Position numbers and translations under genes: made by a program. This document shows, piece by piece, positions 15,170 through 25,127 of a stretch of 64,000 nucleotides of DNA. Origin of the DNA: Barnesiella viscericola DSM 18177. GTDB lineage: Bacteria; Bacteroidota; Bacteroidia; Bacteroidales; Barnesiellaceae. Position 1 is the first letter of the stretch. Each line of letters starts with the position of its first letter. The notes under the pieces were generated by a model, which ran no database searches, was not told the DNA's origin, and saw nothing but the letters and a program-made list of their open reading frames with translations. The stretch is taken from positions 2,978,001 through 3,042,000 of the forward strand of contig NZ_CP007034.1 in the NCBI RefSeq assembly GCF_000512915.1. The letters run 5' to 3'.

Positions 15170-16633
15170 TTACGAGTTCTTCCAGAAATAGGAGGTAAAC
15201 AGGATAAGCACCGTGAACAGTTCGAGACGGCCGATGAGCATGATGAACGAGAGTGTCCACTTACCTACATCGGGAATAAAGGCGTAGCTTCCGACAGGAC
15301 CGGTGGCTCCGGCACCCGGGCCGATGTTGCTCAGGCACGAGAGAGTCGAGCCGAACGATTCCTCTATCGAGAGACCCAGGGCCGTCAGGATAATGGAGCC
15401 GGCAATGAGCACCATGACATATACCAGGATAAAGGCCAGAATCTTGGAGACCACCTCGTGCGAAATAGCCTTGCCATTGACCCGAACCGGCAGTATGGCA
15501 TTGGGGTGAATTGCCCGGAAAAATTCGTTGCGCGTGTTCTTGGCGAGTACCACCAACCGGTCTATCTTGGCACCACCGCAGGTCGAGCCCGCACAGGCTC
15601 CGAAGAACATGAGCAGCAGGAATACCGTGGTGAAGAAGGGCCCCCACGCCACATAGTCGCCTACCGTATAGCCCGTACTGGTGATGACCGTGACTACTTG
15701 GGCGAGCGATACCCGCAGGGTTTCTTCAAACGAGTCGTTCTGTCCCGTTGCATACAATCCGGCTGTTACCACAAGGGTGGCTCCTATCACGATAAAGGTG
15801 TACCATCGCGTCTCCTCGTTGGAAAAGAGCCGTTTAAAATCGCCGGTGACCGCCCGGTAAACCAGGGCAAAGTTGATGCCGGCGAAGAAAGTAAATATGG
15901 TGATGACATAGTCGATGTAAGCCGAATTCCAGTAGTTGAGGCTGGCCTGCTTGGTCGAGAATCCACCCGTGGCCATGGTACTGAATGCGTGGCAGACGGC
16001 ATCGAAGGGCTCCATCGGGCCCAGGCATAGCAGCAGACAGAGTATGGCGGTGAGCGATACATATACGTACCACAGTTTCTTGGAGGTCTCGCCAATCTTG
16101 GGTTTCAGCTTTTCGTGCGAGATACCCGTCACTTCGGAGTTGAAAAGGAACAATCCGCCCTGGTGGTTGAGCATGGGGAGTATGGCGATGGTCAAGAGGA
16201 TAATACCCATACCGCCGATGAGCTGGATAAAGCTGCGCCAAAAGAGAATGCCGTGGGGCATGGCCTCGACATTTACAAGAATAGAGGCACCGGTGGTGGT
16301 CAATCCCGATACCGATTCAAAGAAGGCGTCGGTAATGCTCAACGGGTTGGACATGAGGCAGAAGGGCAACATGCCGAAGACGGTGAAGAAGAACCATATC
16401 GAGGTGACAATCAGGTAGCTCTCGCGTTTGCCTACCTCGTTGCGGGCATTCCTGAACAGGTAGAACAGCAGTCCGCCCGTGAAGGCTGTAATCAGGGTCG
16501 ACAGCAGGAAGGCCGGAGCATCGCCGTCACCGTAGAAGAGAGCGACGAAATAGGGAACGAGCATGAATACCGCCTCCATGCACAGCAACATTCCGATGAA
16601 TTTCAGTATGACGCGAACATTGATTTTTGCCAT
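15170..16633 (-). CDS. trkH: Potassium uptake protein TrkH (membrane subunit)
   Basis: TrkH forms the K+ channel of the Trk system in the inner membrane. The 487-residue protein is a chain of membrane helices containing the four K+ selectivity-filter motifs: SGLTTTGAS, STMATGGFS, VITSTGYTVG and CLSNIGPGAG. Their glycines are the hallmark of the SKT/TrkH family. It follows trkA, encoding the regulatory subunit, by 18 bases and is the last gene of the unit that begins with the 59-residue protein and dxs. I see no clear intrinsic terminator before the ftsK repeat. Confidence 0.95.
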   Translation of the reverse strand: MAKINVRVILKFIGMLLCMEAVFMLVPYFVALFYGDGDAPAFLLSTLITAFTGGLLFYLFRNARNEVGKRESYLIVTSIWFFFTVFGMLPFCLMSNPLSITDAFFESVSGLTTTGASILVNVEAMPHGILFWRSFIQLIGGMGIILLTIAILPMLNHQGGLFLFNSEVTGISHEKLKPKIGETSKKLWYVYVSLTAILCLLLCLGPMEPFDAVCHAFSTMATGGFSTKQASLNYWNSAYIDYVITIFTFFAGINFALVYRAVTGDFKRLFSNEETRWYTFIVIGATLVVTAGLYATGQNDSFEETLRVSLAQVVTVITSTGYTVGDYVAWGPFFTTVFLLLMFFGACAGSTCGGAKIDRLVVLAKNTRNEFFRAIHPNAILPVRVNGKAISHEVVSKILAFILVYVMVLIAGSIILTALGLSIEESFGSTLSCLSNIGPGAGATGPVGSYAFIPDVGKWTLSFIMLIGRLELFTVLILFTSYFWKNS

Positions 16634-16651
16634 ATTTTTCGTTCCCCCTCC

Positions 16652-17986
16652 CTAATTGAACAACTTGTCTATTTTGTGCAGGGCCGTGTCGAGACAGAAG
16701 ATTACGACGTGGTCATTGGGTTGTATCCAGGTATTACCGGTCACGATCATACCGTGGCCGTTGCGCACCAGACCACCGATGGTCAGGTCCGACGGGAGTT
16801 TCAGCTCCTTCACCGGGGCCTTGGTGATTTTGGAGTTCTCCTTGGCCACCAGTTCCATCACTTCGGCGTCCGACAGGGCCAGACACTTGGCATTCGACGA
16901 GTCTTCATCGAGCAGCAGCTGGAAGATGCGGCTGGCCGCCAGCAGTTTCTTGTTGATGATGTTGCCGATATTCAACCGTTCGGCCGTGGAGATGAATTGC
17001 AGGTTCTCGACCTCGGCGATGGTCTTTTTTACCCCTAGCTCTTTGGCGGTGAGGCAGGCCAAGATGTTGGTCTCGGAGCTGTCGGTGAGGGCAATGAAGG
17101 CGTCCATGTCGCGAATGCCCTCCTCTTTCAGCAGGTCGACGTTGCGTCCGTCGCCCTGGATAATGATCACGTCGTTCATGTATTCGGCCAGCTTGTAGCT
17201 CTTCTGTCGGTCGCACTCGATGAGCTTGATGTCCATGTCGTCGGGAGCGTAGCCCGAGATGCGAATGGCGATGCGGCTGCCTCCCATGATCATGATTTTG
17301 TGGATTTCGGCCTCGCTTTCGCCCGAGAGTTGCTGAATCTCCTGTATGTGGTTGGGCGTGGTGGTGAAATAGGCGATGTCGCCCACCTTGATTTCGTCGT
17401 TACCGCGCGGTATGATAGTCTCGTGCAATCGCTTGATGGCCGCAATGTGATATTGGCTGTCGGCGGTGGTGAGTTCGTAGAGTTTCTTGTTGAGAATCTT
17501 GGCATTTTCATGCAGTTTGACACTCAGCACGATGAGCTCGCCGTTGCACAACTCGAACCAGTTGCGGGTCCAGGTGTGTCGCAAGGCGGTGATAACCTCT
17601 TCGGCCGCCAGCTTTTCGGGGTAGATGAGTTCGTTTACCCCCAGCGAGTCGAAGAAACTTTTGTTCTCGGGCAACAGATATTCGTAGTTGTCGACCCGGG
17701 CCAAGGTCTTTTTGGCACCCAGTTTCGAGGCCATGGTGCAAGCCATGATGTTGCGGGTCTCGAATGGCATGACGGCGATAAAGAGGTCGGCCTGGTGAAC
17801 TTTGGCCTGCTCTAATGTTTGGAATGCAGTGGGGTTGCCCACGATTGTCATGAGGTTGTAATTGGCGTCGAGTTCCCTCAGCTTCTCTTCGTTGTTGTCA
17901 ATCAGGATAATGTCCTGCTCTTCCCGGGAGAGTAGCTTGGCCAGGTGGGTTCCCACCTCTCCGGCTCCGGCGATGATGATTTTCAT
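16652..17986 (-). CDS. trkA: Trk system potassium uptake protein TrkA
   Basis: TrkA is the cytoplasmic NAD(H)-binding gating ring of the Trk K+ channel. The 444-residue protein contains two RCK repeats. The first begins MKIIIAGAGEVGTHLAKLL (Rossmann GxGxxG), the second MIMGGSRIAIRISGYA, and each is followed by a TrkA-C domain. The frame extends 17 residues further upstream, but the ATG at 17986 gives the canonical N-terminus directly before the Rossmann strand. It lies between dxs (25 bases upstream) and trkH (18 bases downstream). Confidence 0.95.
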   Translation of the reverse strand: MKIIIAGAGEVGTHLAKLLSREEQDIILIDNNEEKLRELDANYNLMTIVGNPTAFQTLEQAKVHQADLFIAVMPFETRNIMACTMASKLGAKKTLARVDNYEYLLPENKSFFDSLGVNELIYPEKLAAEEVITALRHTWTRNWFELCNGELIVLSVKLHENAKILNKKLYELTTADSQYHIAAIKRLHETIIPRGNDEIKVGDIAYFTTTPNHIQEIQQLSGESEAEIHKIMIMGGSRIAIRISGYAPDDMDIKLIECDRQKSYKLAEYMNDVIIIQGDGRNVDLLKEEGIRDMDAFIALTDSSETNILACLTAKELGVKKTIAEVENLQFISTAERLNIGNIINKKLLAASRIFQLLLDEDSSNAKCLALSDAEVMELVAKENSKITKAPVKELKLPSDLTIGGLVRNGHGMIVTGNTWIQPNDHVVIFCLDTALHKIDKLFN

Positions 17987-18011
17987 AATTAATACCCTTA
18001 TACTTTCATTT

Positions 18012-19916
18012 TTACCAATTCCCCGTGAGGGTCGCATAAATGCTCTCTTCGTCGATGCCGCACAACCGGTGTAGCTCTTTGACCGAGCCCTGGGCTATGA
18101 AGCGGTCGGGTATTCCCAGCCGTTTGATGCGTGGGGCATAGCCGTTGTCGGCCATAAATTCCAGCACGGCGCTCCCGAATCCGCCAGTGATGCAGCCATC
18201 TTCGAGGGTGATGATTCTTTTGTATTTTTTGCCTACTTGGTGCAGTATCTCTTCGTCGAGCGGCTTGACAAATATCATGTCGTAGAGTGCCGCCTGTATG
18301 CCTGCCTCCCGGGCTCGTTGCACGGCATGCAGAGCGTCGACCCCGACGGGCCCGATGCTGAGCACGGCCAGGTCGTCGCCTTCGCAGAGTTGCCGCCCCT
18401 TGCCGATGGGTATCTCGTGCATGGGGCATCGCCAGTCGACCTGACTGCCGCTTCCCCGCGGATAGCGTATGGCAAAGGGGCCGTGGTTGAGCAACTGGGC
18501 CGTGTACATGAGGTGCCGCAGGGTGTGCTCGTCCATGGGGGCGGCGAGGGTCATGTTTGGAATGCAGCGCAGGTAGCTGATGTCGAAGACCCCGTGGTGG
18601 GTTACACCGTCTTCGCCCACCAGTCCGGCCCGGTCGATGCAGAAGATAACAGGCAGATTCTGTATGGCCACGTCGTGTATCACCTCGTCGAAGGCTCTTT
18701 GCAGGAAGGTCGAGTAGATGCTGCAAAACGGTTGCAGTCCCTCTTTGGCCAGCCCGGCGGCAAAAGTGACGGCATGCTCTTCGGAGATGCCCACGTCGAA
18801 CGACCGGTGCGGGAAGCGCTCCATCATGAAGCACGACGAGCTGCCCGTGGGCATGGCCGGCGTGATGACGGTAATCTTGTCGTTCTTCTCGGCCAGCTCG
18901 ACCAGCGTGTGGCCGAAGACGTCCTGGAACTTGGGCGGCTTGTTCCCCTCGGGGTCGCTCTTGCGTTCGCCCGTAGCAGGGTTGAAACAGCCGGGCGCGT
19001 GCCAGATGGTGGGCTCTTTCTCGGCCGGTGCATATCCCTTGCCCTTGATGGTGCGCAGGTGCAGTATCTTGGGCCCCGTCATGTTCTTGATGTCGTTCAG
19101 CTTGTTGACGATGTTGATGACGTTGTGTCCGTCGATGGGGCCGAAATAGCGAATGTCGAGCCCCTCGAATATGTTCTGCTGCTTGGTGAGCAGCGCTTTC
19201 AGACTGTTGTTGAAACGCAGTATGGCACCCCGGTGCTCCTCGTCGATGAGGTTGAAGCGTCGCAGGGTACGGTAGGCGTCGTAGCGCAGTTTGTTGTATC
19301 CGCGCGAGGTGGTGATGTTGACCAGATATTCGTTCAATCCGCCCACGTTATGGTCGATGGCCATATCGTTGTCGTTGAGAATGATGAGCAGATTATTGGG
19401 ATTGATCGAGGCGTTGTTCAATCCTTCAAAGGCCAATCCGCCCGCGATGGAGGCGTCACCGATTACGGCAATCACTTTGCGCTCTTTCTGCTCGTGTTTC
19501 AGACGGGTGGCGATGGCCATGCCCAGGGCGGCCGATATGGAGTTGGAGGCGTGCCCGGCGATGAAGGCGTCGTATTCGCTCTCGGCCGGGTTGGGGAACC
19601 CGCTCAGTCCGTTCAGTTTGCGTATGGTGTCAAACTGCTCGCGACGGCCGGTGAGAATCTTGTGTCCGTAGGCCTGGTGCCCCACGTCCCACACGATGCG
19701 GTCGTAGGGGGTGTCGAACACGTAGTGCAGGGCTACGGTCAGCTCGACGGCACCCATGCTCGACCCGAAGTGTCCCGGGTTATGGGCCAGCGAGTCGATG
19801 AGGAAGCGGCGTATCTCGGCACACACCTCGGGCAGCTTTTCGACCGGCAGTTTGCGCAGGTCGGCAGGGAAGTTTATCTGTTTGAGTAGTTCTATGTTTT
19901 CGGGTTCCATGGTCAC
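18012..19916 (-). CDS. dxs: 1-Deoxy-D-xylulose-5-phosphate synthase
   Basis: DXS condenses pyruvate with glyceraldehyde 3-phosphate, the first step of the methylerythritol phosphate pathway to isoprenoids; the quinone side chain would draw on it. The 634 residues carry the ThDP-binding [17 protein letters not shown] motif and [16 protein letters not shown]. Also visible are [17 protein letters not shown] and the transketolase-like [18 protein letters not shown] with its catalytic glutamate. Two start codons (19916 and 19910) are possible. It follows the 59-residue membrane protein by 22 bases and precedes trkA by 25. Confidence 0.96.
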
Positions 19917-20386: not shown

Positions 20387-21160
20387 TCACTCGATATTCT
20401 TCCGCACCCGGGTGAGGTACGCTTTCATGCGGTCGGTATCTTTATGTTCGATGATGTCGAGCAGGGCCGACATCTGCTTCTGTATCTGTTTTACTTGCTG
20501 GGGCGTGTTGGGATTGAAAAGAATCTCGGTGAGCAGATAGTCGTCCTCCGAGAGCAGGCCGCGGGCTATCTCCATGTGCTTCTTGAAGGTGGTGCCCGGT
20601 GCCTCCTGGTGCTTCATGATCGAGGCGAACACCAGGGTCGAGGTGAAGGGTATCGAGAGGGAGTAGGCGATGGTCTCGTCGTGTTCGCGGAAGGAGTACT
20701 CGAAGATGTTGAGCCGCAGGCGCTGGTAGATGTCCTTGAAGAAGACCTTGCCCAGGTGGTCGCCCTCGGTGATGATGATGACGTGTTGCGTACTCAGGTC
20801 GCTGAGGTTGGCAAAGGTGGGTCCGAACATGGGGTGGGTCGATACGAAGGGGTGACCCGCCCGGGCGTAGAACTCGGGCAGACCGGTCTTGACCGAGGCG
20901 ATGTCCGACAGGATCGTGCGGTCGGGCAGGTAGGGGAGTACCGACTCGAAGGCCTCGATGGTGTATTTGACCGTGGCCGCATTGATAACCAGGTCGGGGG
21001 CAAACTCGCCTATCTCTTCGGGGCGGGTCATGCGCAGGGTGTTGAAGGCAAACCGCAGCCGGTTGGGGTCTACGTCGTAGAGGGCAACTTCGTGGTCGAA
21101 GCTGAGTACGTCGGCAAAGAACGACCCCATCTTGCCGGCGCCGAGGATAACTATTTTCAT
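20387..21160 (-). CDS. tyrA: Prephenate dehydrogenase TyrA
   Basis: This 257-residue NAD(P)-dependent dehydrogenase oxidatively decarboxylates prephenate to 4-hydroxyphenylpyruvate on the way to tyrosine. The Rossmann motif ILGAGKMGSFFAD starts the protein. SDIASVKTGL and the catalytic-histidine region VSTHPMFGPTFANL are conserved in the family, and the C-terminal part is helical. It has no fused chorismate mutase; that domain is on the upstream gene. It is the last gene of the operon, 28 bases after the DAHP synthase gene. Confidence 0.92.
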   Translation of the reverse strand: MKIVILGAGKMGSFFADVLSFDHEVALYDVDPNRLRFAFNTLRMTRPEEIGEFAPDLVINAATVKYTIEAFESVLPYLPDRTILSDIASVKTGLPEFYARAGHPFVSTHPMFGPTFANLSDLSTQHVIIITEGDHLGKVFFKDIYQRLRLNIFEYSFREHDETIAYSLSIPFTSTLVFASIMKHQEAPGTTFKKHMEIARGLLSEDDYLLTEILFNPNTPQQVKQIQKQMSALLDIIEHKDTDRMKAYLTRVRKNIE

Positions 21161-21188: not shown

Positions 21189-22253
21189 CTATTGGTTGAG
21201 AATCTCCATCTGCTGGTGTACCGACTCCTCGTGAATGGCTTGCATCACCTCTTTCATGAACTCGGCACCCATGCCCAACTCCACGGCCTGGGCCATGCGC
21301 TTTTGCAGAATCTCGTCGTAGCGCGAGGTTTGCAACACGGGCATGCTGTGCTCCTTCTTGTATTGACCTATCTCGCGCGACACGCGCATGCGCTTGGCCA
21401 GCAGTTCGAGCAGTTGGTTGTCGAGCTGGTCTATCTGGTTGCGCAGCTCTGCGAGGTTCTCGGTGGTCTGGGTCGTTTCACGAATCACCAGCATGTTGAG
21501 TATGTAGGAGAGCGCTTCGGGGGTCACCTGCTGGTTCTTGTCGCTCCATGCACAGTCGGGGTCGCAGTGCGACTCGACGATAAGTCCGTCGAAGCCCATG
21601 TCCATTGCCTGCTGGCAGAGCGGAGCTACCAGTTCGCGCTTGCCGCCGATGTGGCTGGGGTCGCAGAAGATAGGCAGGTTGGGCAGGCGGCGGCGCAACT
21701 CGATGGGAATATGCCACTGGGGCATGTTGCGGTAGAGGTGCTTGTCGTAGCTGCTGAACCCGCGGTGGATTACGCCCAGCCGGCGCAGACCGGCGTTGTA
21801 GATGCGCTCGACGGCTCCAATCCACAGTTCCAGGTCGGGGTTCACGGGGTTCTTGATCAGTACGGGAATATCCACTCCTTTCAAGGCGTCGGCAATCTCC
21901 TGCACGGCAAAGGGGTTGGCCGTGGTGCGGGCACCTATCCACAAGATGTCGATGCCGTGTTTGAGGGCCTCGAACACGTGGCGCTCGGTAGCTACCTCGG
22001 TGGCAGTGTACATGCCGGTCTCCTCTTTTACCCGTTTGAGCCAGGCCAGTCCTTCTACGCCTACACCCTCGAAACCTCCCGGTTTGGTGCGGGGTTTCCA
22101 TATTCCGGCGCGGAATATCTTGATACCCTGTTCGGCCAGTTGGCGGGCGGTGTTCATGACTTGTTCTTCGGTCTCGGCACTGCAAGGGCCGGCTATGATG
22201 AGGGGGCGTTTGCGGTCGATCCCAGGCAGTAAAATCGGTTGTAAATCTTTCAT
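21189..22253 (-). CDS. Bifunctional DAHP synthase / chorismate mutase
   Basis: The 354-residue protein joins two activities at opposite ends of the shikimate-to-prephenate route. Residues 1 to about 260 are a KDPG/DAHP-type aldolase barrel (IAGPCSAE, FRAGIWKPRTKPGGFEG, IGARTTANP, CDPSHIGGKREL). Residues from about 265 are an AroQ-type chorismate mutase (LAELRNQIDQLDNQLLELLAKRM, KKEH). The DAHP synthase part is of the short AroF/KDSA-like class. It lies between the aminotransferase (15 bases upstream) and tyrA. The domain fusion, with mutase at the C-terminus, is common in Bacteroidetes and may let prephenate or its products control the synthase. Confidence 0.94.
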   Translation of the reverse strand: MKDLQPILLPGIDRKRPLIIAGPCSAETEEQVMNTARQLAEQGIKIFRAGIWKPRTKPGGFEGVGVEGLAWLKRVKEETGMYTATEVATERHVFEALKHGIDILWIGARTTANPFAVQEIADALKGVDIPVLIKNPVNPDLELWIGAVERIYNAGLRRLGVIHRGFSSYDKHLYRNMPQWHIPIELRRRLPNLPIFCDPSHIGGKRELVAPLCQQAMDMGFDGLIVESHCDPDCAWSDKNQQVTPEALSYILNMLVIRETTQTTENLAELRNQIDQLDNQLLELLAKRMRVSREIGQYKKEHSMPVLQTSRYDEILQKRMAQAVELGMGAEFMKEVMQAIHEESVHQQMEILNQ

Positions 22254-22268
22254 GACGGTATATAAGTT

Positions 22269-23456
22269 TTAGAATTTTACGGATTGGATTCGTTGTAAGG
22301 CTTCGTTCATTCGCTCCTCGGTGGCACAGAGCGAGATGCGCAGGTAGCGGTTGCCGCGGCTACCGAAGATGAATCCCGGGGTGACAAAGACGCGGGCTTC
22401 GTGAAGTATCCGGTCGGCCAGCGACTCGGCGTCGGGTGCCGTGTCGGGGATTCGGCCCCAAAGGAACAGTCCCACCTGCGACGGGTCGTAGCGGCAGTCG
22501 AGTGCCTGCATGATTCGTTCGGCTATCTGGCGGCGGGAGCGGTAGACGCGGTTTACCTCGTCGTACCATTCGGGACCGCACGAGAGTGCCTTGATGGCTG
22601 CACTCTGCAACGGGCGGAACATGCCCGAGTCGATATTGCTCTTTACCCGCAATATCCACTCGACGAACCGGGGGTTGGAGGCCAGCATGCCGATGCGCCA
22701 ACCGGCCATGTTGTGCGACTTGCTCAGCGAGTTCATCTCGATGCAGCACTCCCGGGCTCCGGGAACCGACAGCAGACTGAGGGGCCGGTCGTTGAGGATA
22801 AAGCTGTATGGATTGTCGTTGACGATGACGATGCCGTGACGCCGGCCAAACTCCACCAGCCGGGTGAAGAGCTCGGTCGAGGCGTTGGCTCCGGTGGGCA
22901 TGTTGGGGTAGTTGACCCACATGAGTTTGATGCGGTCGAGCGGCATCGATTCGAGTTGGTCGAAGTCGGGTTGCCACCCGTTTGCCTCGTCGAGGTCGTA
23001 GGTGAAAATCTCGGCTTCGGCCAGCCGGCTCACCGAACTGTAAGTGGGGTAGCCGGGGTTGGGCACCAGTACTCCGTCGCCGGGATTGAGGAAGGCAAGG
23101 CTGATGTGCAGGATTCCCTCTTTCGACCCGATAAGGGGTTGTATCTCCCGTTGCGGGTCGAGCTCTACGCCGTACCAGCGGGCATACCAGTCGGCAAACG
23201 CCCGGCGCAATTCGGGAATACCCACATAGGGCTGGTAGCTGTGCGTGTCGGGGCGTCGGCTCTCGGCACACAAGGTTTCGATGGTCTCGGTGTGAGGCGG
23301 TCGGTCGGGGCCGCCAATACCCAGGCTGATGATGTCGAGCCCGCGGGCGTTCAGCGCGGCAATCTCTTTCAATTTGCGCGAGAAGTAGTATTCGCTCACG
23401 CTGTTTACCCGGTTGGCGGGACGTATGGTATCAAAGGGGTTGGTTGAATTCTGCAT
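22269..23456 (-). CDS. PLP-dependent aminotransferase, class I/II (probable aromatic aminotransferase)
   Basis: This 395-residue fold-type I aminotransferase carries the PLP lysine K246 in EMNSLSKSHNMAGWRIG. Also visible are SLGIGGPDRPPHTE, the PYVGIPELR substrate-side segment and VNYPNMPTGA. By sequence it resembles the LL-diaminopimelate/aspartate aminotransferase group. By position, between pheA and the DAHP synthase/mutase and in one operon with tyrA, it most likely transaminates phenylpyruvate and hydroxyphenylpyruvate to Phe and Tyr. Its start overlaps the 3' end of pheA by 26 bases. Confidence 0.85.
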   Translation of the reverse strand: MQNSTNPFDTIRPANRVNSVSEYYFSRKLKEIAALNARGLDIISLGIGGPDRPPHTETIETLCAESRRPDTHSYQPYVGIPELRRAFADWYARWYGVELDPQREIQPLIGSKEGILHISLAFLNPGDGVLVPNPGYPTYSSVSRLAEAEIFTYDLDEANGWQPDFDQLESMPLDRIKLMWVNYPNMPTGANASTELFTRLVEFGRRHGIVIVNDNPYSFILNDRPLSLLSVPGARECCIEMNSLSKSHNMAGWRIGMLASNPRFVEWILRVKSNIDSGMFRPLQSAAIKALSCGPEWYDEVNRVYRSRRQIAERIMQALDCRYDPSQVGLFLWGRIPDTAPDAESLADRILHEARVFVTPGFIFGSRGNRYLRISLCATEERMNEALQRIQSVKF

Positions 23457-24276
23457 ATTCTCCGAGTATTTTGAAGTTCTTGGTCAATGGTCGTATGGCT
23501 TCGAGCGACTGTTTGTAGCGGGTGAAGTTGTCGAAGGTGAGGTCGATGTAAAAGCGGTATTCCCATTCCCGCCCGATGATGGGCATCGATTGGATTTTCG
23601 ACAGGTTGATGTCGTAGAAGGAGAGTATCGTGAGCACCTTCGACAGACTGCCCTGCGTGTGGGGCAGGCTGAATACCAGCGACGACTTGTTGATGCGTTT
23701 GCCGGCGGTGAGCAGGTCGCTGTAAAGCGGGTCGGCCATGATGAGGAATCGGGTGAAGTTGCGCTTGTTGGTCTCGATGCCCTCGGCCAGAATGTTCAGT
23801 CCGTAAATCTCGGCAGCCAGCCGGCCGCAAATGGCGGCATGTCCTTCGAGCCGTTGCTGGGCTATCTCCTGTGCGCTGCCCGCCGTGTCGTCCTTCTCCA
23901 CCAGTTTCATGCGGGGGTGGGCTTTGAGAAACTCGCCGCACTGCATCAGTGCCATGGGGTGGGAGTTTACCTCGCGAATGTCGTCGAGTTTCTCGCCCGG
24001 CAGGGCTGCCAGCACGTGCGAGATGCGTAATTTGTATTCCCCCACGACGTTTAGATTGCTTTTGCGCAGCAGTTCGTGATTTTGCAGCAGGCTGCCGGCG
24101 ATGGTATTCTCAATGGCCATGATGCCCAGCAGGGAGTGGTCGTGCGCCATGCGGTCGAACATCTCGGGGAAGGTGGTGCAGGCGACGGTCTCAATATCCT
24201 CCTCGCCGAAATAGGCTCGTGCGGCGGCTTCGTGATAACAACCGGCTATGCCTTGTATGGTAACTCTTTTCTTCAT
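23431..24276 (-). CDS. pheA: Prephenate dehydratase PheA
   Basis: This enzyme decarboxylates and dehydrates prephenate to phenylpyruvate. The 281 residues show the type 2 periplasmic-binding-like catalytic part (GIMAIENTIAGSL, TAGSAQEIA and TNKRNFTRFL) and a C-terminal ACT domain (SSLVFSLPHTQGSLSKVLTI). In the ACT domain the positions of the classical GALV and ESRP phenylalanine-binding motifs read GSLS and QSMP, so allosteric control by Phe may differ from enteric PheA. It is the first gene of the operon. Its start is only 13 bases beyond the end of the attenuator stem. Confidence 0.95.
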   Translation of the reverse strand: MKKRVTIQGIAGCYHEAAARAYFGEEDIETVACTTFPEMFDRMAHDHSLLGIMAIENTIAGSLLQNHELLRKSNLNVVGEYKLRISHVLAALPGEKLDDIREVNSHPMALMQCGEFLKAHPRMKLVEKDDTAGSAQEIAQQRLEGHAAICGRLAAEIYGLNILAEGIETNKRNFTRFLIMADPLYSDLLTAGKRINKSSLVFSLPHTQGSLSKVLTILSFYDINLSKIQSMPIIGREWEYRFYIDLTFDNFTRYKQSLEAIRPLTKNFKILGEYAEFNQPL

Positions 24277-24283
24277 AGGTCGA

Positions 24284-24320
24284 AAATAAAAAATCCCGTT
24301 CGTGCAATGAACGGGATTTT
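24284..24320 (-). terminator. Attenuator terminator of the pheA operon
   Basis: On the minus strand a perfect 12-base stem (24309-24320 with 24290-24301, loop of 7) is followed by a T-rich tract (TTATTTTC, with four T already closing the stem). It is a textbook intrinsic terminator lying between the leader peptide and pheA, inside the transcribed leader. Confidence 0.92.
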
Positions 24321-24365
24321 ATTGAATATGTGTTATTGTCTTGTTTTACATCATGTTTATTTGCA

Positions 24366-24377
24366 TAAAACCCCGTT
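24366..24377 (-). promoter_or_regulatory. Antiterminator strand of the pheA leader
   Basis: On the minus strand AACGGGGTTTTA (24377 to 24366), starting one base after the leader stop codon, can pair over 12 bases with TAAAATCCCGTT (24321 to 24310). The pairing has one G-U pair. The target is the 5' arm of the terminator plus one base, so the pairing excludes the terminator. A ribosome at the leader stop codon would cover this strand; a ribosome stalled on the Phe/Tyr codons would not. Confidence 0.85.
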
Positions 24378-24378
24378 T

Positions 24379-24438
24379 TTATTTTGGCCCAAAATAAAAA
24401 TAAAAGTAAAAGTAATATGCAAAATCAAAATTCTTCAT
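24379..24438 (-). CDS. Phe/Tyr-rich leader peptide of the pheA operon (19 aa)
   Basis: The short frame ATG 24438 to TAA 24379 encodes MKNFDFAYYFYFYFYFGPK. Six Phe and five Tyr fill 11 of 19 positions and alternate in the second half. Such a run of the regulated amino acids just before a terminator is the hallmark of transcription attenuation, as in the enteric pheA leader. It lies 28 bases downstream of a strong promoter and about 100 bases upstream of pheA, which with tyrA explains why both amino acids are sensed. A 12-base AT-rich inverted repeat (24376-24400) covers its last codons and could serve as a pause hairpin. Confidence 0.92.
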   Translation of the reverse strand: MKNFDFAYYFYFYFYFGPK

Positions 24439-24465
24439 TGTTCCTCTGTGGTGAGTTTCGTGTTG

Positions 24466-24496
24466 CAAATGTAATGAAATCATTTTTCAATCCAAA
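24466..24496 (-). promoter_or_regulatory. Promoter of the pheA operon leader
   Basis: TTTG (24493-24496, minus strand), 19 bases, then TACATTTG (24466-24473) is a perfect Bacteroidetes-type promoter. The transcript would start near 24459, giving a leader of roughly 180 bases before pheA. Confidence 0.8.
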
Positions 24497-24634
24497 CAAA
24501 TCGTTATAAATTTTTCGATAAAACGATAATTTTTTTATTCCATTTGAGAGCTGCGTGTACATTGTGTTTGGGTGTGCACCGAGCTTGGAAGAAAAATAGA
24601 AGGGCGGGAGAGGACGAACCCCGCATTTTTTCAC

Positions 24635-24642
24635 TACCTTTG
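24635..24642 (+). promoter_or_regulatory. Predicted -7 box of the acidic protein gene
   Basis: TACCTTTG matches TAnnTTTG exactly, 23 bases before the ATG at 24666. No good -33 TTTG is seen. Confidence 0.5.
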
Positions 24643-24665
24643 TAATCATAATAATGGAATGAGTT

Positions 24666-25127
24666 ATGGAAGTTTCGGAACAAAAACTTTTCTCTGCTTT
24701 GTGCGGGACCTTTTGTGCGGCTGTGGAAAAGGCTCGTGCAGAGTCCATGTCGCTGACCGACATGTATGTACAGGTGAAATATGACGACCAGCAGGTTGTC
24801 GTGTATGACGATGCCGACGGGGTGCTGGCTCAGGCTACCATCGAAGAGCTCGACGAGTGGCGCACGGCTCACGAAGGCGAGCCGTCGGAAGCGGCATTGA
24901 TTGCCTTGCTGAGAAAGGTATTGGAACACGACGAGGTGAACCAGGCTCTTCACACGTTGGATTTCATATCGCCCTTCTCGGTCGTGCTGGTGAATGCCGA
25001 AATGGAACCGGTGGCCGACCTCGTTACCCTTGACGACGAGAATGTCTATCTGCACGACGATTTCTGGGAGAAGATGGACAAGGAGCTCGACGATTTCTTT
25101 GAACAACTCATGGCCGATACCAAGTGA
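24666..25127 (+). CDS. Conserved-looking acidic protein of unknown function (153 aa)
   Basis: I do not recognise the family. The protein is soluble and strongly acidic, with no signal peptide or membrane segment. The N-terminus is helical with two cysteines (ALCGTFCAAVEKA), and a short strand-rich part follows (YVQVKYDDQQVVVYDDADG). The C-terminal third is very acidic (EKMDKELDDFFEQLMADTK). It has its own -7 box and a weak hairpin after the stop codon. It lies between the divergently transcribed pheA operon and trigger factor, which has a separate promoter, so the neighbours give no functional hint. Confidence 0.75.
   Translation: MEVSEQKLFSALCGTFCAAVEKARAESMSLTDMYVQVKYDDQQVVVYDDADGVLAQATIEELDEWRTAHEGEPSEAALIALLRKVLEHDEVNQALHTLDFISPFSVVLVNAEMEPVADLVTLDDENVYLHDDFWEKMDKELDDFFEQLMADTK

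Follow-up and report, generated by a model that had tools for sequence, protein, structure and literature searches.

A predicted ribosome-mediated Phe/Tyr transcription attenuator ahead of pheA in Barnesiella viscericola and its relatives in the Bacteroidia

The DNA immediately upstream of pheA in Barnesiella viscericola carries, on the minus strand, a promoter-like sequence, a very short ORF rich in Phe and Tyr codons and a strong hairpin, and the question raised by this locus is whether these elements are the working parts of an attenuator or have come together for some other reason. A first-pass annotation of the window (by which we mean the whole 64,000-nucleotide stretch analysed here, taken from a genome that consists of a single contig of 3.08 Mb) proposed that they constitute a complete Phe/Tyr attenuator. 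From the sequence comparisons and folding models described below, the locus very probably encodes a ribosome-mediated transcription attenuator that would sense charged tRNA-Phe and tRNA-Tyr and would control the pheA-aminotransferase-DAHP synthase/chorismate mutase-tyrA operon.

The Pfam content of the four successive genes of this operon (Table 1) indicates that it makes both Phe and Tyr, as the annotation had stated. The genes dxs (DXP synthase), trkA and trkH come after tyrA on the same strand (window positions 15170-19916). The nearest upstream ORF that we take for a gene (24666-25127), which has no Pfam match, sits on the opposite strand; two minus-strand mechanical ORFs (24425-24763 and 24504-25106) overlap it antisense and were not counted as genes. 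The possibility that the hairpin is the terminator of an upstream gene was rejected on this arrangement and, because the nearest upstream gene is on the opposite strand, a minus-strand terminator between the promoter and pheA most likely ends a leader transcript.

Direct reading of the minus strand bore out the presence of the attenuator parts ahead of pheA, in the 5' to 3' order of promoter, leader ORF, antiterminator strand, 44-nt spacer, terminator and U-rich tract. The promoter assigned by the annotation conforms to the pattern TTTG-N19-TACATTTG, a type of motif that we take to be the Bacteroidales promoter consensus and that is matched five times in the window against 0.59 expected. The leader peptide, MKNFDFAYYFYFYFYFGPK, has the 19 residues, including 6 Phe and 5 Tyr, that had been ascribed to it, and when the window's upstream region was shuffled 5000 times with dinucleotides preserved, no ORF attained its F/Y density of 10/12 (a density of 8/12 was reached in 2/5000). 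The terminator, AAAATCCCGTTC-ATTGCAC-GAACGGGATTTT (24320-24290), is indeed a perfect stem of 12 bp, closed by a loop of 7 nt, with a folding energy of -15.7 kcal/mol, and the pheA ATG starts 14 nt beyond the last base of the stem. The antiterminator strand, AACGGGGTTTTAT (24377-24365), can form a 13-bp duplex with ATAAAATCCCGTT that includes one G-U pair, and it is overlapped within segment 2 by TATGCAAA (24367-24360), the partner of segment 1.

Table 1. Features of the pheA operon and its leader region, in window coordinates
Feature	Position	Strand	Basis
Promoter, TTTG-N19-TACATTTG, Bacteroidales-type	24466..24496	(-)	motif matches in window; TANNTTTG in relatives
Leader peptide ORF MKNFDFAYYFYFYFYFGPK, ATG to TAA, stop included	24379..24438	(-)	sequence; shuffles; codon-position pattern in relatives
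Segment 1, 5' strand of 1:2 protector, TTTGCATA, inside Phe-Ala-Tyr codons	24416..24423	(-)	MFE fold, swap test, covariation
Segment 2, antiterminator strand and overlapping segment-1 partner	24360..24378	(-)	pairing, shuffles, swap test, fold, covariation
Segment 3, terminator 5' arm, also 3' partner of antiterminator	24309..24322	(-)	pairing, covariation
Segment 4, terminator 3' arm	24290..24301	(-)	pairing, covariation
U-rich tract of intrinsic terminator, partly within stem	24283..24293	(-)	sequence
pheA, prephenate dehydratase, first gene past attenuator	23431..24276	(-)	PF00800
Aminotransferase class I/II	22269..23456	(-)	PF00155
DAHP synthase fused to chorismate mutase	21189..22253	(-)	PF00793 + PF01817
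tyrA, prephenate dehydrogenase	20387..21160	(-)	PF02153

The upstream regions of pheA were compared in four samples. The near set comprises the best 80 of 555 PheA relatives in named genomes, placed by class from their record names and PheA similarity; two of its members, labelled Lachnospiraceae (L048) and Paenibacillus (L077), were taken for misnamed assemblies and a third (L069) is designated only as an uncultured bacterium. Within these best 80 of 555, the closest named loci are those of Barnesiella sp. An22 and An55 (PheA identity 93%). The order sample consists of 60 loci in other genomes (a PheA match was obtained in 61/149 genomes), the class sample of 30 of the 32 same-class matches, with the two most distant (G160 and G243) left out, and the out-of-class sample of 28 of 95 matches, hand-picked across families. 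Removal of eight regions shorter than 150 nt, together with two identical copies, left 188 loci besides the window. An ORF was counted as a leader if it had an ATG start and an F/Y density of at least 6/12; in simulated upstream regions of whole-genome loci a density of 7/12 occurred in 14/2380 and one of 8/12 in 2.

Such leaders lie upstream of pheA in 140 of the 160 other Bacteroidia loci (near 64/74, order 49/56, class 27/30), as opposed to 3 of the 28 loci outside the class. Both amino acids are represented at least twice in 140/144 leaders, the window's included, and just 2/144 are without Tyr. A terminator is present behind 143/144, and a hairpin of -10 kcal/mol or better was found in 141/143 real loci compared with 4.3% of 2880 shuffled leader-to-gene stretches. 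The annotation had named relatives that lack the leader codons or the competing stem as evidence that would count against an attenuator; leaders, terminator and stem are kept in most of the relatives sampled. Among the 20 Bacteroidia loci with no ATG leader, four (L080, L104, L134 and L150) have candidate leaders that begin with GTG or TTG. In another 12, a mechanical ORF of 100 codons or more on the same strand ends within 180 nt upstream of pheA or at its start, so that pheA may not be the first gene of the operon there, and the last four (L042, L055, L095 and L167) have neither feature. Trp codons also occur in 28/144 leaders (L121, L141 and L161 are examples), and some of these leaders may sense Trp as well, since the window's operon includes a DAHP synthase.

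The pattern of substitutions within the leaders bears on what it is that selection maintains there. Pairwise differences per site were computed for codon positions 1, 2 and 3 across the eight codons that close the F/Y block. The 65 sequences of the near set give 0.065, 0.386 and 0.368, the order set 0.150, 0.550 and 0.508, and the class and out-of-class loci combined 0.228, 0.578 and 0.492, with position 1 the lowest in each case. Position 1 stays U, while position 2 alternates between U and A (Phe versus Tyr) and position 3 between C and U. As read from these sequences, such a pattern is the requirement of a mixed Phe/Tyr codon sensor and not the product of mere U-richness. It also speaks to the alternative of nascent-peptide arrest, by which a hydrophobic F/Y-rich peptide would stall the ribosome from within the exit tunnel, so that the stall, and not starvation, would set the fold of the RNA. 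TnaC is an arrest peptide that acts with Trp, and the block FAYYF.FYFYF is recognisably kept in the near relatives, as this alternative would have it. An arrest peptide would nevertheless be expected to preserve side chains, not codon classes, whereas Phe and Tyr interchange freely here (0.386 differences per site at codon position 2 against 0.065 at position 1), and the residues outside the block vary with RNA pairing, in that class-sample leaders with NTWQ or RFYFSN, for example, pair with downstream strands of their own (L120, L122 and L126). We therefore consider peptide arrest to be very unlikely, and a sensor of charged tRNA to be the better reading of the leader.

The signals that would start transcription and translation of the leader differ in their conservation. 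The 90 nt that precede the leader contain the element TANNTTTG in 61/63 near loci (7% expected), 36/48 of the order set and 14/30 of the class and out-of-class loci; these counts, and those that follow, leave out three leaders with less than 60 nt upstream. SD-like motifs in the last 20 nt before the leader number 2/63, 3/48 and 0/30 in the same three sets, no excess over shuffles in any of them. The suggestion that the leader is translated without a Shine-Dalgarno site thus holds for the group, but not for the window itself, which is one of the two near loci with such a motif: an SD-like AGAGGA lies immediately 5' of its leader ATG and is absent from its closest relatives (L002-L006).

What stays fixed in the geometry of these elements is the distance between the last control codon and the antiterminator. 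The duplex that the post-leader segment can form with the 5' arm of the terminator was equalled by no more than 10 of 200 shuffles in 131/143 loci, and by no more than 2 of 200 in 107, leaving 12/143 loci outside the best 5% of shuffles. In the 131 loci the median distance from the last F/Y codon to the antiterminator start is 10 nt (sd 2.9; 5-14 nt in 122/131), but when that start is measured from the stop codon the sd rises to 11.3 nt, and anchoring to the stop codon was rejected on this comparison. The placement of the antiterminator strand one base after the stop codon, to which the annotation had drawn attention, is correct for the window, which belongs to the 19/131 loci where the strand begins at or past the stop, but it is not the conserved geometry. 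In 91/131 loci the strand begins 10 nt or more inside the leader ORF, and in 73/131 it lies entirely within it; a stop-codon rule therefore fits only a minority. The comparison yields instead a simple design rule, namely that ~10 nt separate the last control codon from the start of the antiterminator, independently of where the stop codon lies.

Three helices compete for these segments, as in a canonical attenuator: the protector 1:2, in which the codons for F-A-Y pair with the antiterminator region, the antiterminator 2:3 and the terminator 3:4. The protector was absent from the first-pass annotation and is added here. When partner strands were swapped between loci, the mean energy of the 2:3 helix fell short of that obtained with a locus's own partner (-11.9 versus -17.7 kcal/mol), and in the distant set of 78 loci 0/20000 permutations gave a value as low. 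The corresponding values for 1:2 are -10.5 versus -15.2 kcal/mol, with 0/5000 permutations as low, both overall and separately in the near, order and class/out-of-class subsets. Covariation, which the annotation had put forward as a check on the stems upstream of pheA, was scored, with 500 shuffles per helix, in near leaders aligned by MAFFT (64 of the 65). Standard pairs fill 90.7%, 85.0% and 73.2% of the alignment cells for 3:4, 2:3 and 1:2, respectively, and the covariation scores of 0.289, 0.243 and 0.229 (shuffled means 0.144, 0.172 and 0.166) were matched by 0/500 shuffles for each helix, the protector included. Both-side changes exceed the shuffles for 3:4 (2/500 as high), but among these 64 near sequences they do not for 2:3 (187/500) or 1:2 (143/500). 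The 1:2 score is nearly equalled after a slide of two columns, which leaves the exact register of that helix uncertain. A two-hairpin model without a protector was rejected on the 1:2 swap test; synonymous-codon nulls, against which 1:2 reached the 5% level in only 49/143 loci, did not decide the matter. The protector offers, from the sequences, a reason for the leader residues that are neither Phe nor Tyr, since FAYY, FTYY, NTWQ and RFYFSN vary together with the downstream partner. In three class-sample loci (L122, L125 and L126) segment 1 extends upstream as far as the leader start codon or close to it, where the 1:2 helix could also limit the initiation of leader translation.

These helices need to be considered together with the possibility that the hairpin is a constitutive leader terminator, or the end of a small RNA, whose product would be a short stable RNA and a fixed level of read-through. 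The strength of the stem is what one would expect in that case, and regulation is itself deduced here from sequence. A constitutive terminator, however, needs no Phe/Tyr ORF, no fixed distance between antiterminator and control codons and no covarying alternative helices, and we regard it as a highly improbable explanation of a locus at which all of these accompany the terminator of the proposed attenuator.

The effect of ribosome position was modelled by folding the transcript as far as segment 3 while the footprint of the ribosome was masked, and the values given are means over the 131 loci. A ribosome placed on the last F/Y codon gives an antiterminator probability of 0.74 (above 0.5 in 96% of loci); this probability falls to 0.12 when the ribosome is four codons further along and to 0.00 when it is past the antiterminator strand. 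With no ribosome the mean is 0.55, values below 0.5 being obtained in only 34% of loci (the window has 0.82), which means that, at equilibrium, the protector on its own does not settle the state of the untranslated leader. The minimum-energy fold of the full window transcript is 1:2 plus 3:4, and it still keeps the terminator when a ribosome is stalled on the last Phe codon. The switch must therefore be kinetic, with 2:3 pairing before segment 4 is made. Other attenuators likewise depend on the formation of 2:3 before segment 4 is synthesized.

The sequence of events that these models suggest is as follows. Under a shortage of Phe or Tyr, the leading ribosome would stall on the UUY/UAY run and cover segment 1, and its front edge, ~10 nt past the A-site codon, would leave segment 2 free to pair with segment 3, whereby the terminator would be blocked and the operon transcribed. 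With ample supplies of both amino acids, the ribosome would advance a few codons and cover segment 2, which in most relatives would itself be translated, and the 3:4 terminator would halt transcription. If no ribosome is present, the 1:2 helix would compete for segment 2 and favour termination, though only partly. We infer from the sequences that termination would take place at 3:4, that it would depend on tRNA charging and that transcription and translation would be coupled across the leader.

Alternation between a terminator and an antiterminator is also known from RNAs that bind ligands, and the ORF might be incidental to an element of the riboswitch or T-box kind. No known RNA family was found at the Rfam gathering threshold in the window, and a lax search of the leader gave nothing convincing (the top score, for trpB, was 25.4 of 59 bits). 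The three-base periodicity and the F/Y density fit a translated sensor instead, and a ligand-binding RNA seems to us extremely unlikely.

The E. coli pheL-pheA leader (Rfam Phe_leader, RF01859) is a proven attenuator and a close counterpart of the Bacteroidia element. The two share the target gene pheA, a leader with a run of Phe codons and an intrinsic terminator, and by our own reading of the E. coli sequence its GGGAGG antiterminator strand follows the last Phe codon by 8 nt, compared with the median of 10 nt reported above. In the computed E. coli fold the 1:2 helix is likewise built on a GCA (Ala) codon within the Phe run. The covariance model does not match, however, the window leader scoring 16.1 against a gathering threshold of 55 bits, and the Bacteroidia leaders differ from pheL in their mixture of Phe and Tyr codons ahead of an operon that makes both amino acids, in the lack of SD sites in the group and in an ORF that often runs through the antiterminator strand.

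A 2004 article by Vitreschak and co-workers is said to mention Bacteroidetes/Chlorobi in its abstract. Bacteroid-trp (Rfam RF01692), which is presumably a Trp leader-peptide element, has no match anywhere in this genome at its gathering threshold of 49 bits. The Anth_synt_I_N domain (trpE) also has no match in this genome, which is 99.87% complete, and is present in 14/14 control genomes; the organism is thus possibly a tryptophan auxotroph. Bacteroid-trp is listed as a cis-regulatory RNA motif from this phylum (cis-reg 'y'; PMC2864571). A study of Flavobacterium psychrophilum reports strong clues of leader-peptide attenuation ahead of amino-acid operons and describes, upstream of pheA, a structured 5' element that is conserved in other genera of the Flavobacteriaceae and has no Rfam hit (PMC9723704). 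This element and the Bacteroidia attenuator probably belong to the same family, because the leader is present in 27/30 class-sample loci, some of which (family f123) are, at a guess, Flavobacteriaceae; the section of that study on the pheA element gives no leader sequence, helices, geometry or distribution in the Bacteroidales. The uORFC-13-1 motif, which lies ahead of the DAHP synthase gene aroF, resembles the present element in that a uORF containing one or more Phe codons directly precedes an intrinsic terminator (PMC8632094). It is unlike the Bacteroidia leaders in its RBS and possible -10/-35 promoter regions; neither Bacteroides nor Bacteroidetes was found in the main text of that report. 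Long 5' UTRs of B. thetaiotaomicron contain sORFs that are described as reminiscent of leader peptides, with BT_4401 as an example (PMC7366714). In the portions of the open-licence literature covered by our search, no description of a pheA attenuator in the Bacteroidales was found. The type of attenuator is accordingly a known one with precedents in the phylum, to judge from Bacteroid-trp and the flavobacterial pheA element, and the present element has no match in Rfam.

The three leaders detected outside the class provide some indication of how the attenuator has been inherited. The PheA proteins of these loci (L114, L133 and L137) fall on the Bacteroidia side of a branch with 100/100 support in a midpoint-rooted tree, although support for their precise positions is weak and the branches leading to them are long (0.68-1.0). 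Relatives from two of their three families, f133 and f136, fall on the other side; full-length PheA of other members of f145 is not included in the tree. The leader was not found at the 25 other out-of-class loci among the 28 examined. That the attenuator follows the pheA gene in these three loci suggests horizontal co-transfer. We lean towards the view that a Phe/Tyr attenuator with SD-less leaders and a usually translated antiterminator is ancestral to the Bacteroidia and class-wide, that it has been kept with the pheA lineage and that it has been carried horizontally into other classes.

Attenuation by a leader peptide requires a ribosome close behind the RNA polymerase, and translation in the Bacteroidia is mostly initiated without Shine-Dalgarno sites. 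If the view just given is true, conservation of the attenuator would imply tight coupling of transcription and translation throughout the Bacteroidia, at least near promoters. A phylum-level literature search by titles or abstracts found no test of coupling in this class. The conserved pheA attenuator would offer a native reporter of coupling in gut Bacteroidales as well as a natural sensor of Phe/Tyr supply.

Other amino-acid operons of the same genome were inspected for similar leaders. A Thr leader ahead of the homoserine dehydrogenase gene, with a fold no better than shuffles (z 0.3), is not claimed. A His-rich leader, MLFLSLHHHHLHIPYGGVR, lies upstream of hisG (L203 offsets 497-556; G000:C1 near 2648996), accompanied by a Bacteroidales-type promoter and a hairpin that resembles an intrinsic terminator, and is a probable second attenuator. 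Upstream of ilvD there is an ORF rich in branched-chain residues, MNIMLLHVISLSVISELIVVSR (L205 offsets 695-763), which is probably the leader of an Ile/Leu/Val attenuator. Both leaders rest on inspection, the whole-region fold giving z values of -2.0 for his and -0.3 for ilv. By sequence reading, GGTGGAAAGG, which follows the ilvD leader ORF, complements the 5' arm of a terminator-like hairpin downstream.
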